Below, piece by piece: positions 37,996-51,515 of a DNA stretch of 64,000 nucleotides. Positions within the stretch are counted from its first letter, which is position 1, and each line of letters starts with the position of its first letter. The position numbers and the translations under genes were made by a program. The stretch spans positions 558,001 through 622,000 of the forward strand of contig NZ_CP009451.1 of assembly GCF_000757825.1 (NCBI RefSeq), given 5' to 3'. The notes beneath the pieces were generated by a model. The model did not search any database and was not told the DNA's origin. It worked only from the letters and a program-made list of their open reading frames with translations. The DNA comes from Cedecea neteri. GTDB lineage: Bacteria; Pseudomonadota; Gammaproteobacteria; Enterobacterales; Enterobacteriaceae.

Positions 37996-40476
37996 ATGCG
38001 GCTGACTACTGCCCTCCGCCTGATGAGCATTTGTCTTATCTGCCTCACCGTCTTGCTGCAGGCTCAGCCGGCCTTCTCTGCGCCGTTATCGCTGGCCGAT
38101 CCTCTGGCGTTAACCCCGCAAGAGCGTGACTGGGTTGCGGCTCATCCCCTTGTACCGGTGCTGGTGGTTAACACCCATATCCCGCTGACCTTTATTAACC
38201 AGGAAGGCGAGCAAAGTGGCTATGCCGTGGCGCTGCTGAACAGCATTGGCCGGCAAACCGGGCTGCGGTTTACCTGGCATCCCTTCAATAACCTGGTCGA
38301 GATGCGCGAGCAGCTCAAAAAAGCCCCCGACTCGCTCATTGCCGCAGCGGATGCTTCCGCCACGGGGCCAGACGCCGGGCTGATCTATACCCGCCCAATA
38401 CAGGTGACCGACTGGGTGCTGGTCACGCGCAAGAAGTTTCCCGTCGTCACCACCCTTGCCGACATGAAGGGCAAAAAGGTTGCGGTCTTTACCGGCAGCT
38501 ATTACCTGCCGGAGCTGCGCAGGCAATTCCCGCAGGTCGAGTTTGTTGAGCAGGACTTTTCGCTGGAAACCGCGCTGGCGCTGTTTGTTCACAATCTGGA
38601 CGGCGCCATCGTGCCGCAAACCGCCGCCAGCTTCGTGCTAAAAAGCTATCTTGAGGATCGTTTCCGCATCGCCATGACGGTGCCCGTTCCCCCGCTACGG
38701 CTGGCGATGGCTTCCGGCGAGCAAAATCGCCCGCTGCTGTCGATAATCGATAAAGCCCTGGAGCGGCTCCCGCCGCACGAAATGGAGGAGCAGCTCAACG
38801 GCTGGCAGATGCGCTACGCCCTGGAGCGCTTCGAAGTTTGGGGGCATTACCGTACCGGTATCATGATAGCTATTGTTATCCTCAGCCTGGCAGCGATGCT
38901 GCTGGTGTTCTATTTCTGGCGCAACCGCCTGCTGAGGCGCACGCTGGCAACCCAGCAGGCGCTGCAAAATGAACTTCGGGCTTCGCAGGCGCGGCTGCAA
39001 AAAGCCAGCGAGTCGAAAAGCCAGTTTCTGGCGCAAATGAGCCACGAAATACGCACCCCGATGAATGCCCTGATTGGCCTGCTGGAGCTGGAAAACGCCG
39101 GGCGCAGTACCCCCGAACAGCGGCGAAATAACATTGCCGTCGCCTACGAATCCTCGAAGTCATTATTGATGCTGGTTGGGGATATTCTTGATATGGCAAA
39201 AATCGAATCCGGCACCTTTACCGTGCGTAGCGTGCCGCTTTCTCTGAGCGAGATGATCAACAGCGTCAGCACCCTGTTCCGCTACAGCGCGGAGGAAAAG
39301 CACCTTGCGCTAAGTGCCAGCGTTGAGGTGCAGGACGACCGGATCCTGTTCGACCCGGTGATGCTCAAACAGATAGTCTCTAACCTGGTGAGCAACGCCA
39401 TCAAATTTACTGCCCAGGGCGAAGTTGAAATCATTATCTACCAGGCCAAAAAGCAGGCTGCTGAAACAGGCGATTACGTACTGGAGGTCTGTGATACCGG
39501 CGTGGGGATGAGCGAGGAGCAGCAAAACGCGATATTCGAACCGTTTGTGCAGCTGGATGCCGCGCAAAGAGAGCACCACGGCAGCGGGCTGGGGCTTAGT
39601 ATTTGCCGCCAGCTAGCGGCGCTGTTGCACGGCAGCCTTGAGGTTGAAAGTTCGCCTGGCGAAGGCACCATTTTTATCTTCCGGTTCTCTGCACCTGTGG
39701 CACCGCCTGAACAGGCCAACGCCTCTACGGAGGTCAGCCCGCGCCGCTCGCGCAAAATTTTAGTGGTGGACGACCACCCTGCAAACCGGCTGCTGCTGGT
39801 GCAGCAACTGGAATTTGCCGGCCATCGCAGCGTGGCGGCAGAAAACGGCGTCCAGGCGCTGCGGCTGTGGGAAAAAGAAAATCCACCGTTTGACGTCGTC
39901 ATTACCGACTGCAATATGCCGGACTTAAGCGGCTTTGAGCTGGTAAGGCAGCTGCGTGAGAAAGAAAAGTTGATGGCAAGAGAACCTCAGCCGATGTTTG
40001 GCCTGACCGCCATGGCGGAGCAGCAGGTGCGCGACCGGGGAATACAGGCCGGGATGACCGACTGCCTGTTCAAGCCTGTGGAGCTGGAAAAGTTACTTGC
40101 CCGTATCGATAAACACTCAGAGCACACAGCTGAACCTTCATCACGCCCGCTGCTTTCGCTCAGCAGGCTGGCCGAGTCTCAGCCGGAGGCCTTCCGTGCA
40201 TTAGTTAAGACCGTGATTGAGCAAAACCAGCTGGATATGGCCGCGCTAAAAAGCGGCATCGCCAGCGGAGATTTCGGGCTTATCAAAAGCAGCGCTCATC
40301 GCCTTGCCGGCAGCGCAAGGCTGGCCGATGCTCCCAAGCTGTCTGCTATTTGCGGGCAAATTGAAGCGGCGGCAGAGGCGCAGGACAGCGAGGCCGTTCA
40401 CACTTTAGCGGCTGACGGCGAACGGCATGTGAAAGAGCTGGAGAATGCGCTGAGCCACCTTGCTATACTGCCTTAA
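37996..40476 (+). CDS. EvgS/BvgS-like hybrid sensor kinase (one periplasmic domain)
   Basis: 826 aa. Signal peptide to about residue 29 (ends PAFSA); one SBP_bac_3-type periplasmic sensor domain (about 40-270); TM 288-308; HisKA with His350 (MSHEIRTPMNALIG); HATPase with NLVSNAIKF, DTGVGM (500-505) and GSGLGL (529-534); receiver with Asp638 (VVITDCNMPDLSG); C-terminal HPt with His768 (SSAHRLAGSA). This is the full four-step phosphorelay layout of EvgS/BvgS but with a single sensor lobe and no PAS domain (E. coli EvgS is 1197 aa with two lobes). The ligand is unknown. The partner is the response regulator gene 33 bp downstream. It lies beside the fimbrial operon. Confidence 0.9.
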   Translation: MRLTTALRLMSICLICLTVLLQAQPAFSAPLSLADPLALTPQERDWVAAHPLVPVLVVNTHIPLTFINQEGEQSGYAVALLNSIGRQTGLRFTWHPFNNLVEMREQLKKAPDSLIAAADASATGPDAGLIYTRPIQVTDWVLVTRKKFPVVTTLADMKGKKVAVFTGSYYLPELRRQFPQVEFVEQDFSLETALALFVHNLDGAIVPQTAASFVLKSYLEDRFRIAMTVPVPPLRLAMASGEQNRPLLSIIDKALERLPPHEMEEQLNGWQMRYALERFEVWGHYRTGIMIAIVILSLAAMLLVFYFWRNRLLRRTLATQQALQNELRASQARLQKASESKSQFLAQMSHEIRTPMNALIGLLELENAGRSTPEQRRNNIAVAYESSKSLLMLVGDILDMAKIESGTFTVRSVPLSLSEMINSVSTLFRYSAEEKHLALSASVEVQDDRILFDPVMLKQIVSNLVSNAIKFTAQGEVEIIIYQAKKQAAETGDYVLEVCDTGVGMSEEQQNAIFEPFVQLDAAQREHHGSGLGLSICRQLAALLHGSLEVESSPGEGTIFIFRFSAPVAPPEQANASTEVSPRRSRKILVVDDHPANRLLLVQQLEFAGHRSVAAENGVQALRLWEKENPPFDVVITDCNMPDLSGFELVRQLREKEKLMAREPQPMFGLTAMAEQQVRDRGIQAGMTDCLFKPVELEKLLARIDKHSEHTAEPSSRPLLSLSRLAESQPEAFRALVKTVIEQNQLDMAALKSGIASGDFGLIKSSAHRLAGSARLADAPKLSAICGQIEAAAEAQDSEAVHTLAADGERHVKELENALSHLAILP

Positions 40477-40509
40477 CCAGTTGAAACCTAACCTTCGGGC
40501 CGCCCTTTT

Positions 40510-51200: not shown

Positions 51201-51515
51201 GACGGCAGCATGCTCGGTGAACTGCTCAGGCTGACGCTGCAAAGCAATGAGGAGGACTTACGCCTGGCAGAAGATCTGTTTAGCCTGCAGGATTGGCCTG
51301 AACTCGCCTCCTGCGTGCACCGCATCTCCGGGGCAGTACAAATATGCGGGGCAGAACGGGCGGAAAGCGCCTGCCGTAACCTGGAGGCCGCCTGCCGTGA
51401 AGCCGTCGCCGATGAGGTCGAAATCGAGGATTTGTGGCTGAAGTGTTCCAGCGCTGTGGAAGAGTTTAACCAGGCGATTCATGCCTGGCTAAACGACGAG
51501 GAATTTAGTCCATAA
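48228..51515 (+). CDS. EvgS/BvgS-like hybrid sensor kinase (two periplasmic domains)
   Basis: 1095 aa from ATG 48228, 4 nt after the regulator stop; the frame is open from 48192. Signal peptide YNLLILLLGLIIFSPAYA. Two SBP_bac_3-type sensor lobes in tandem (about 45-275 and 290-520); TM 534-555; coiled linker; HisKA His607 (MSHEIRTPVSAIIG); HATPase with NLVSNAIKF, DTGKGI and GSGLGL; receiver Asp897 (VVITDCSMPGMDG); HPt His1031 (CVHRISGAVQ). Same phosphorelay layout as the kinase at 37996 but with the complete double Venus-flytrap sensor. The ligand is unknown. The last 11 nt overlap the convergent DUF2164 gene. Confidence 0.91.
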   Translation: MYNLLILLLGLIIFSPAYADRATKPERLHILSRESYQPKAFTLDDKDWRWLGNKRELHVAVWQPEIPPLYLYTGNSRYEGMIADYIHLIAQYLGLRVNVQMFADRDAALSALAQHKVDMVADPSGKVLPQHARLVPSNNFISDHPVLVHRKSSNGAPFRYQPGMRLAIARWYVDDSWIEQNFPGVTLRHFATDEQAMASVAFEENDFYIGNLVTTSYLLERNYSHFLAFQRVYPERETGSHFVLRSEDLPLMRAVNRALDAIPRIQHQVILQQWSERANLWRVSKQVEFSGAEKKWLARHPSVKVSVNAFYAPFTMIDANGNFYGVTDDILRLIRLRTGLHFEPAPADSVSAMEQQIDDKKAMFIGAVSHSEERNQNLLFSRAYFTSPFVMVQAKGKNYASPLPAGTRVAIVSKNSLIPELRQLNPDVRIIETANASIAMQMVDDGKADIAIHSLFGASYMIDRYFRDRLKIGGHVGGQTAGIAFAVSRDQPELLSILNKSLENISPADINSIINKWQTRPDVRLDTWELYKTQFWLVFSVAGVLILTSLIWVYYLHREVRARLLAQQKLQAQLEYNETLTHALSEERERAEQANRAKSTFLATMSHEIRTPVSAIIGLLELSVKANESLPEEEDPIRVAWESARTLMGLIGDILDMARIESGRLELAPEWVKTTDLLPPVVRVFEGLARQKSLRLRCILSPPLPYQVYIDPLRFRQVLSNLVSNAIKFTERGCVNVDITALESPPADSVLLRISVVDTGKGISPEEQEDIFSPWVQAKNGRGQSGSGLGLAICAQLVEMMGGNIMMKSLPGHGTEVSFTVPVAQSQRRPEQVVQKNQPQAVQHYPLSILAVDDHPANRLLLRSQLVHLGHKVTEARDGEEAWALWHDNAFDVVITDCSMPGMDGPALTRLIRQHQSEPVIILGLTANAWPEERTRCKMAGMDDCLFKPLQLPQLEAILTSVMKSKQAALAEPAGLDKLVNIEKLKAMSSHDGSMLGELLRLTLQSNEEDLRLAEDLFSLQDWPELASCVHRISGAVQICGAERAESACRNLEAACREAVADEVEIEDLWLKCSSAVEEFNQAIHAWLNDEEFSP

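Follow-up and report, generated by a model that had tools for sequence, protein, structure and literature searches.

We describe a block of nine genes in Cedecea neteri in which a five-gene chaperone-usher fimbrial operon is flanked by two complete phosphorelays of the BvgS/EvgS type. The block lies in a stretch of 64,000 nucleotides of the 4.88-Mb chromosome (hereafter the window; unless another locus is named, coordinates are positions within it). It is one unit, and the association between the fimbria and the relays is beyond chance, as the block stays together in six genomes and four Cedecea genomes have an empty site in its place. A conserved candidate operator precedes the pilin gene. 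From these sequences we think it fairly probable that the block is a fimbrial cassette carrying its own two-input switch on the pilin promoter.

Pfam searches of the window proteins found all nine genes where the preliminary description, made from the sequence alone, had placed them. The operon (41144-47067, minus strand) encodes a major pilin (46540-47067, 175 amino acids from the ATG at 47067, in an open reading frame of 46540-47100), a PapD-type periplasmic chaperone (45788-46471), an outer membrane usher (43227-45845, likely ATG at 45761; PF00577, 649 bits) and two tip adhesins, which is the composition of a chaperone-usher system. Adhesin 1 (42175-43236, an open reading frame with internal ATG candidates) and adhesin 2 (41144-42160) each combine an MrkD-like receptor-binding domain with a Fimbrial (pilin) domain and are 70% identical to one another; solved relatives of adhesin 1 include FimA and Abp1D/Abp2D. 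The operon showed no separate gene for a minor pilin. The first relay (37996-41136, plus strand) consists of the hybrid kinase K1 (37996-40476, 826 amino acids) and the response regulator R1 (40510-41136). The second (47600-51515, plus strand) consists of the regulator R2 (47600-48223) and the kinase K2 (48228-51515, likely ATG at 48228, the reading frame opening at 48192). Both regulators are of the NarL/EvgA type, with a receiver and a GerE (LuxR-type) helix-turn-helix. The orientations are also as first described: R1 is convergent with the operon and ends 7 bases from it, and R2 is divergent from the pilin gene at a distance of 532 base pairs (bp).

Conservation of the whole block had been proposed as a check on any link between its parts, and the block is indeed kept. 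Orthologues of K2 (at least 70% identity) were found in 4 of 8 Cedecea genomes, in 1 of 14 from the genus of Rahnella and in 1 of 37 from the genus of Erwinia, and in all six K1, R1, R2, K2 and the fimbria occur together. These genomes span three NCBI families, and the Erwinia copy lacks one adhesin. The Cedecea orthologues of K2 are at least 90% identical, with K1 about 8 kb away in each; identity falls to 71% in Rahnella and 70% in Erwinia. A scan for ushers in named genomes gave the same picture from the side of the fimbria. It returned 27 loci, and the complete nine-gene block was present at three of these, in C. neteri (L001), C. davisae (L002) and Rahnella woolbedingensis (L017), with protein identities of 66-83%. 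A fourth locus, in Erwinia aphidicola (L003), has everything except the second adhesin. For the remaining 23 loci, with ushers of at most 53% identity, no orthologue of either pair was found in the flanks, some of which end at contig ends; in the flank of one of them, L007, there is a 26% match to K1. When K2 was searched against an order-wide draw of 394 genomes at an expectation value (E) of at most 1e-130, six genomes matched, with identity above 53% in the own genome only.

The other four Cedecea genomes (G397, G398, G399 and G400) have neither the fimbria nor K1-R1 at this place. In the window a shikimate-kinase-like gene precedes K1 and a flavin reductase gene (51747-52340) follows K2. 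In G397, G399 and G400 about 270-280 bases separate the flavin reductase gene from the point where the alignment of the shikimate-kinase-like gene ends. In G398 the shikimate-kinase-like gene was not found, and metQ adjoins the flavin reductase gene at a distance of about 310 bases. The right flank of the empty site matches the window to just past K2. We place the cassette at approximately 37963-51517; its left border is approximate, because the left flank gives no alignment at the DNA level. Base composition was tried as a signature of foreign DNA and rejected, as the GC content of 2-kb windows in the block (0.50-0.62) resembles that outside it (0.52-0.59).

The Erwinia copy is rearranged. 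There R2 (7539-8162), K2 (4259-7534), K1 (944-4228) and R1 (250-873) follow one another on one strand, divergent from the fimbria. The gap from the K2 frame to the K1 frame is 30 bases, and the four genes look like a single operon. That the two relays are linked therefore does not hinge on how the genes are ordered in the window.

The interval between the pilin gene and R2 (47068-47599) had been singled out beforehand as a place where both regulators might bind, and a conserved candidate operator does lie inside it. The operator was found by aligning this interval from the six genomes. On the pilin (minus) strand it consists of an inverted heptad, TGTAGTC-CTGG-GATGACA (47432-47449), and a second half-site, GATGACA (47410-47416; GACGACA in two Cedecea loci, L001 and L050), 22 bp after the first GATGACA. 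A putative -35 box, AATGTT (47385-47390), and a putative -10 box, TATAGT (47362-47367), follow, separated by a 17-bp spacer. All four elements are conserved at invariant spacing in the six genomes, with 73 bases from the centre of the dyad to TATAGT. In Rahnella and Erwinia the conservation is mostly confined to this core and to the neighbourhood of the two gene starts, and much of the remaining sequence is poorly conserved. The window, L002, L017 and L003 have 14 heptamers in common; shuffling the last two sequences leaves 0.77 on average, and at most 4 in 200 trials. The pattern TGTMRTC-N4-GAYGACA has one exact match in the entire genome. With one mismatch it has nine matches and the reversed control has eight, so the information lies in the exact site alone. 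The distance from TATAGT to the pilin ATG, 300 bases in the window and 175 in Erwinia, implies a long leader. The predicted leader (47068-47361) is about 300 bases in Cedecea and Rahnella and shorter in Erwinia, and it has no match in Rfam; neither Rfam families nor transfer RNAs were matched anywhere in the window.

Both kinases have the unorthodox architecture of BvgS and EvgS, with HisKA, HATPase_c, receiver and Hpt domains in one chain, and the residues of the relay are intact (H350, D638 and H768 in K1; H619, D909 and H1043 in K2; D54 in R1; D53 in R2). The best solved relatives of K2 are BvgS (4q0c, a periplasmic structure) and EvgS (9ilw), and that of R2 is EvgA (5f64). A PAS domain before HisKA is a feature of the BvgS/EvgS family. 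Pfam found none in either kinase at E <= 1e-3; it is present in the relatives at L043, L044, L052, L058 and L116 and not in that at L119. K1 and K2 are the only proteins of the own genome that match a K2 query at E < 1e-100, the next match being at 5e-54, and there is no third kinase of this kind.

The preliminary description gave one kinase a single sensor lobe and the other two. In the window K1 does have a single SBP_bac_3 lobe, which scores under the Pfam cut-off, and K2 has two SBP_bac_3 stretches. The single lobe is not a second design; the orthologues of K1 in Erwinia and Rahnella are longer. The K1 frame has 826 codons in the window and 826-828 in L001 and L002, compared with 1094 in Erwinia, where its alignment with K2 runs over residues 19-1068, i.e. 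across both lobes, although Pfam scores SBP_bac_3 there only once. The Rahnella K1 aligns over residues 18-1092 with one internal stop codon (L017, 15340-18620), which falls in the region of the first sensor lobe. The Cedecea protein has an apparent signal peptide (by eye) and then the membrane-proximal lobe alone. As the Erwinia and Rahnella proteins align over both lobes, the one-lobe form is most simply read as a derived loss in Cedecea.

We considered a recent tandem duplication of the two pairs and rejected it, as R1 and R2 are 44% identical, K1 and K2 are 34% identical and the best tree separates the regulators. That tree rests on 207 positions and has several long branches. An exclusive clade of R1 and R2 was not rejected (approximately unbiased test, p-AU 0.124), so the data are compatible with an old sister relation.

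How often do such relays adjoin fimbriae? For a census we relaxed the K2 search of the 394 genomes to E <= 1e-75 and scored two candidates per genome. Matches were found in 48 genomes, the own genome included, and 54 places outside it were fetched with about 8 kb on each side, some of them cut by contig ends. An usher was present in the fetched stretch for 12 of the 32 kinases with an adjacent EvgA-type regulator and for none of the 22 without one (Fisher p = 0.0007, which is optimistic because several of the loci are closely related). The chance expectation, from the five ushers of the own genome, is about 2% per locus. A fimbria with two relays around it was seen in two forms only. One is the block described here. 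The other is in G400 (L043 5212 to L044 10062), where two related relays bracket a different fimbria (usher 39-41%), next to which lie Wzc- and Wza-like genes; the L043 and L044 regulators are sisters (99/98 support). In G395, which has the block, another relay stands divergent from another fimbria about 22 kb away on the chromosome (L052). This second relay and fimbria (L052, 578-16108) lie beside genes that match the pga-like genes of our window in approximate length and order. Seven plasmid regions were opened: L056, L058 and L061 carry fimbriae, L057 carries an autotransporter, L062 an immunoglobulin (Ig)-like protein with two kinases and one regulator, and L060 an EvgAS pair with oxalate genes; no fimbria was seen in L059. 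An Erwinia aphidicola locus (L120, in G402) has two further kinase/regulator pairs, convergent and adjacent, with no usher in the fetched stretch.

Dyads related to the candidate operator were found at some of these loci. We built a half-site model from the block alone and scored 37 regions against first-order resampled sequences: three training regions, three other regions of the block and 31 outside it. Seven of the 31 reached p < 0.03, where about one is expected by chance. These are upstream of the pilin genes of L043 in G400 (0/2000 resampled sequences), L061 (3/2000) and L056 (16/2000), upstream of the regulators of L061 (8/1000), L045 (18/2000) and L057 (49/2000), and in the interval between regulator and pilin of L052 (14/2000). 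All seven come from loci whose regulators fall close to R1, R2 and EvgA in the tree, outside the distant clades. From the same part of the tree, L058, L044 (86/2000) and L046 did not reach this threshold; nor did the distant fimbria-linked loci that were scored. L043 has a second dyad, TGTAGTC-N4-CCCTACA, and this one too is followed by a half-site at 22 bases. At L117 (10739-18999, G405, in the Erwinia aphidicola genus group) an R2-like regulator is divergent from a pertactin-type autotransporter, followed by pilin-like genes (the one scanned matched DUF1120) and, by eye, a frame like the start of an usher. Dyads precede three of these genes (TGTAGGC-N4-GCCTACA and, twice, TGTAGTC-N4-CCCTACA). 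The pattern, written after the sites had been seen, matches 0.013 times per shuffled locus, and the last two dyads are likely copies of each other.

These observations suggest the following model. K2 would phosphorylate R2 and K1 would phosphorylate R1, each through its internal His-Asp-His relay. Dimers of phosphorylated R2, and probably of phosphorylated R1, would bind the inverted heptad and the site 22 bp downstream, and so occupy one face of the DNA up to the weak -35 box. The 22-bp phase is seen for the dyad and half-site in all six genomes; a third dimer, at a site beside the -35 box that is predicted only, would abut the box. The pilin promoter would then be activated as BvgA activates its promoters. 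We consider it likely that R2 acts through the candidate operator. That R1 feeds into the same promoter is put a little above even; it probably does so, because it is inherited together with that promoter.

Several points weigh against this model. A scan of the interval with the consensus sigma-70 promoter found nothing of the kind on the pilin strand. The recognition helix, which we tried as a means of assigning the operator to R1 or R2, is nearly constant across the family, even in members whose loci lack the dyad, so the sequence cannot assign the site to either regulator. The scan for related dyads was not blind, because the choice of regions came after the motif had already been noticed in some of them. 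Its results are also uneven: the adhesin-linked L058 lacks the dyad, L045 has one and no usher nearby, and L116, the sister locus of L117, with a close relative of R2 in a similar kind of locus, is free of it, which counts against a strict operator code. Finally, the 33 bases upstream of K1 in the window contain no dyad, so there is no visible sign that K1-R1 belongs to that regulon (the regions picked upstream of K1 in L017, 17724-18200, and L003, 3358-4262, are mostly or wholly K1 coding sequence and are not tests of this).

This last observation would fit another arrangement, in which K2-R2 alone controls the fimbria and K1-R1, a separate system for genes elsewhere, travels in the cassette as cargo. 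The operator adjoins R2, not R1; the two regulators are just 44% identical and stand apart in the best tree; and the nearest relatives of R2 outside the block (L056, L116 and L117) are themselves linked to fimbriae or adhesins. Against this, K1-R1 is kept with the fimbria in six of six genomes, through a rearrangement that put it directly behind K2 in Erwinia, and is missing from the same four Cedecea genomes that lack the fimbria. A search for K1 in the 394 genomes at E <= 1e-130 matched only the own genome and one 42% relative with no usher nearby. We regard the cargo explanation as rather unlikely. The preliminary description also suggested cross-phosphorylation or heterodimers, with either kinase acting on one common regulator or R1 pairing with R2. 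There are precedents in the available portions of published work, RocS1 and RocS2 acting on RocA1 (PMC3083521) and PvrS and RcsC acting on RcsB (PMC3842833), and the receivers of R1 and R2 agree at 48 of 118 positions. The Hpt domains, which donate phosphate to the regulators, are a different matter: K1 and K2 are identical at just 16 of 83 aligned Hpt residues, compared with 39 of 75 in HisKA and 57 of 118 in the receiver, and each regulator keeps its own phosphorylation site. Cross-talk thus found no support here, and we consider it improbable. As the Hpt domains have diverged more than the HisKA and receiver domains, separate phosphotransfer with convergence on the DNA is weakly favoured.

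It could also be argued that two unrelated sensors simply landed beside a fimbrial operon. More distant relatives of the kinases do occur without fimbriae, as the preliminary description had said they should if there were no link, and 20 of the 32 regulator-linked census loci have no usher in the fetched stretch. This is not so for the orthologues, which are inherited with the fimbria in six of six genomes, are missing along with it from four of eight Cedecea genomes and have stayed with it through the Erwinia rearrangement. Even among the wider relatives, an usher at 12 of 32 loci is far above the expectation of about 2%. Coincidence is therefore very improbable, and the cassette with two inputs remains the explanation that we prefer.

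The idea of two inputs meeting at one fimbria was put forward as a new circuit. The co-inheritance, the empty site, the Erwinia gene order and the conserved operator all speak for the circuit; in principle, though, systems in Pseudomonas precede it. The principle of two sensors on one chaperone-usher operon is known from cupD and the Roc systems, as far as the available parts of the papers describe them (PMC3842833, PMC2696094, PMC3083521). In P. aeruginosa PA14 the cupD operon stands with rcsCB and pvrSR on PAPI-1; both sensors act on fimbrial expression, and the operon was probably acquired together with the two sensor/regulator pairs (PMC3842833, PMC2696094). The Cedecea block resembles this in its two pairs, which are linked to a single chaperone-usher operon and inherited together with it. 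However, the excerpts describe four cupD regulatory genes on one side of the operon, an EAL output in PvrR and a need of PvrS for an external Hpt, whereas the Cedecea pairs bracket the operon, both regulators are of the helix-turn-helix type and both kinases carry their own Hpt together with EvgS-type periplasmic lobes. In the Roc1 and Roc2 systems unorthodox sensors homologous to BvgS control the cupB and cupC fimbriae, with RocS1 and RocS2 converging on cupC (PMC3083521, in part; the convergence also appears in the available text of PMC12051241). There cross-regulation through one regulator is reported, and the Cedecea block gives no sign of it.

The block can also be compared with BvgAS and EvgAS. 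According to the accessible part of PMC7250471, binding of BvgA extends from an inverted heptad upstream to the -35 region, with one dimer every 22 bp. With BvgAS, on that account, the block has in common the unorthodox sensor, the NarL-type regulator and the 22-bp phase of its first two sites; the sequence of the Cedecea heptad and its 4-bp gap are different. So are the lack of a detected PAS domain in K1 and K2, the presence of two systems at one locus and the one-lobe K1. The EvgAS systems of E. coli and Klebsiella have the same domain order, and EvgA is, as noted above, the nearest solved relative of R2. Unlike the Klebsiella plasmid copy, which lies beside oxalate and yfdX genes and not beside fimbriae, the block has neither of these among its neighbours in the window. 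In L059 and L060 the regions before evgA gave no such dyad at p < 0.03. Among titles and the beginnings of abstracts, with subscription journals thinly covered so that absence is not proven, we found no fimbria-linked EvgAS or BvgAS relay in the Enterobacterales. A search with the same thin coverage gave no paper on the binding site of EvgA. Thus we have not found a description of EvgS-type relays bracketing a fimbria in this order, of their behaviour as one cassette or of the operator.

A wider reading would join these loci into one family of exchangeable Enterobacterales adhesin cassettes, each with one or two BvgAS-like relays of its own and a shared operator code of inverted heptads of the TGTAGTC type in 22-bp phase. 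The control of adhesins, as in BvgAS, would then be ancestral, and the acid- and oxalate-linked EvgAS would descend from this stock after losing its adhesins. The form with two relays would then have at least two origins, one in the block and one at L043/L044 in another Cedecea, with its different fimbria and sister regulators. We offer this only as a tentative possibility.

Other genes for surface attachment lie nearby. Two large Ig-like repeat proteins of 1836 and 2146 amino acids, the first with a match to RTX repeats, are followed by outer-membrane-efflux, ABC and HlyD-type genes (76-17053), and this is probably a type I secreted adhesin locus. At 18785-24571 there are matches to a PgaA barrel, a polysaccharide deacetylase/GHL13 and a family 2 glycosyltransferase, i.e. 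a pga-like (poly-N-acetylglucosamine, PNAG) biofilm operon. With this operon present, the window forms a region of genes for surface attachment.

If the two-input model is correct, the block would be a compact natural switch in which two inputs act on one promoter, with an operator predicted to base resolution, in an enterobacterium that is easy to handle. How paired BvgS-type relays can be insulated from one another and yet act jointly would then become directly testable. Furthermore, the link between BvgAS-type sensing and adhesins in Bordetella and Pseudomonas would extend to a type of locus that recurs in the Enterobacterales.

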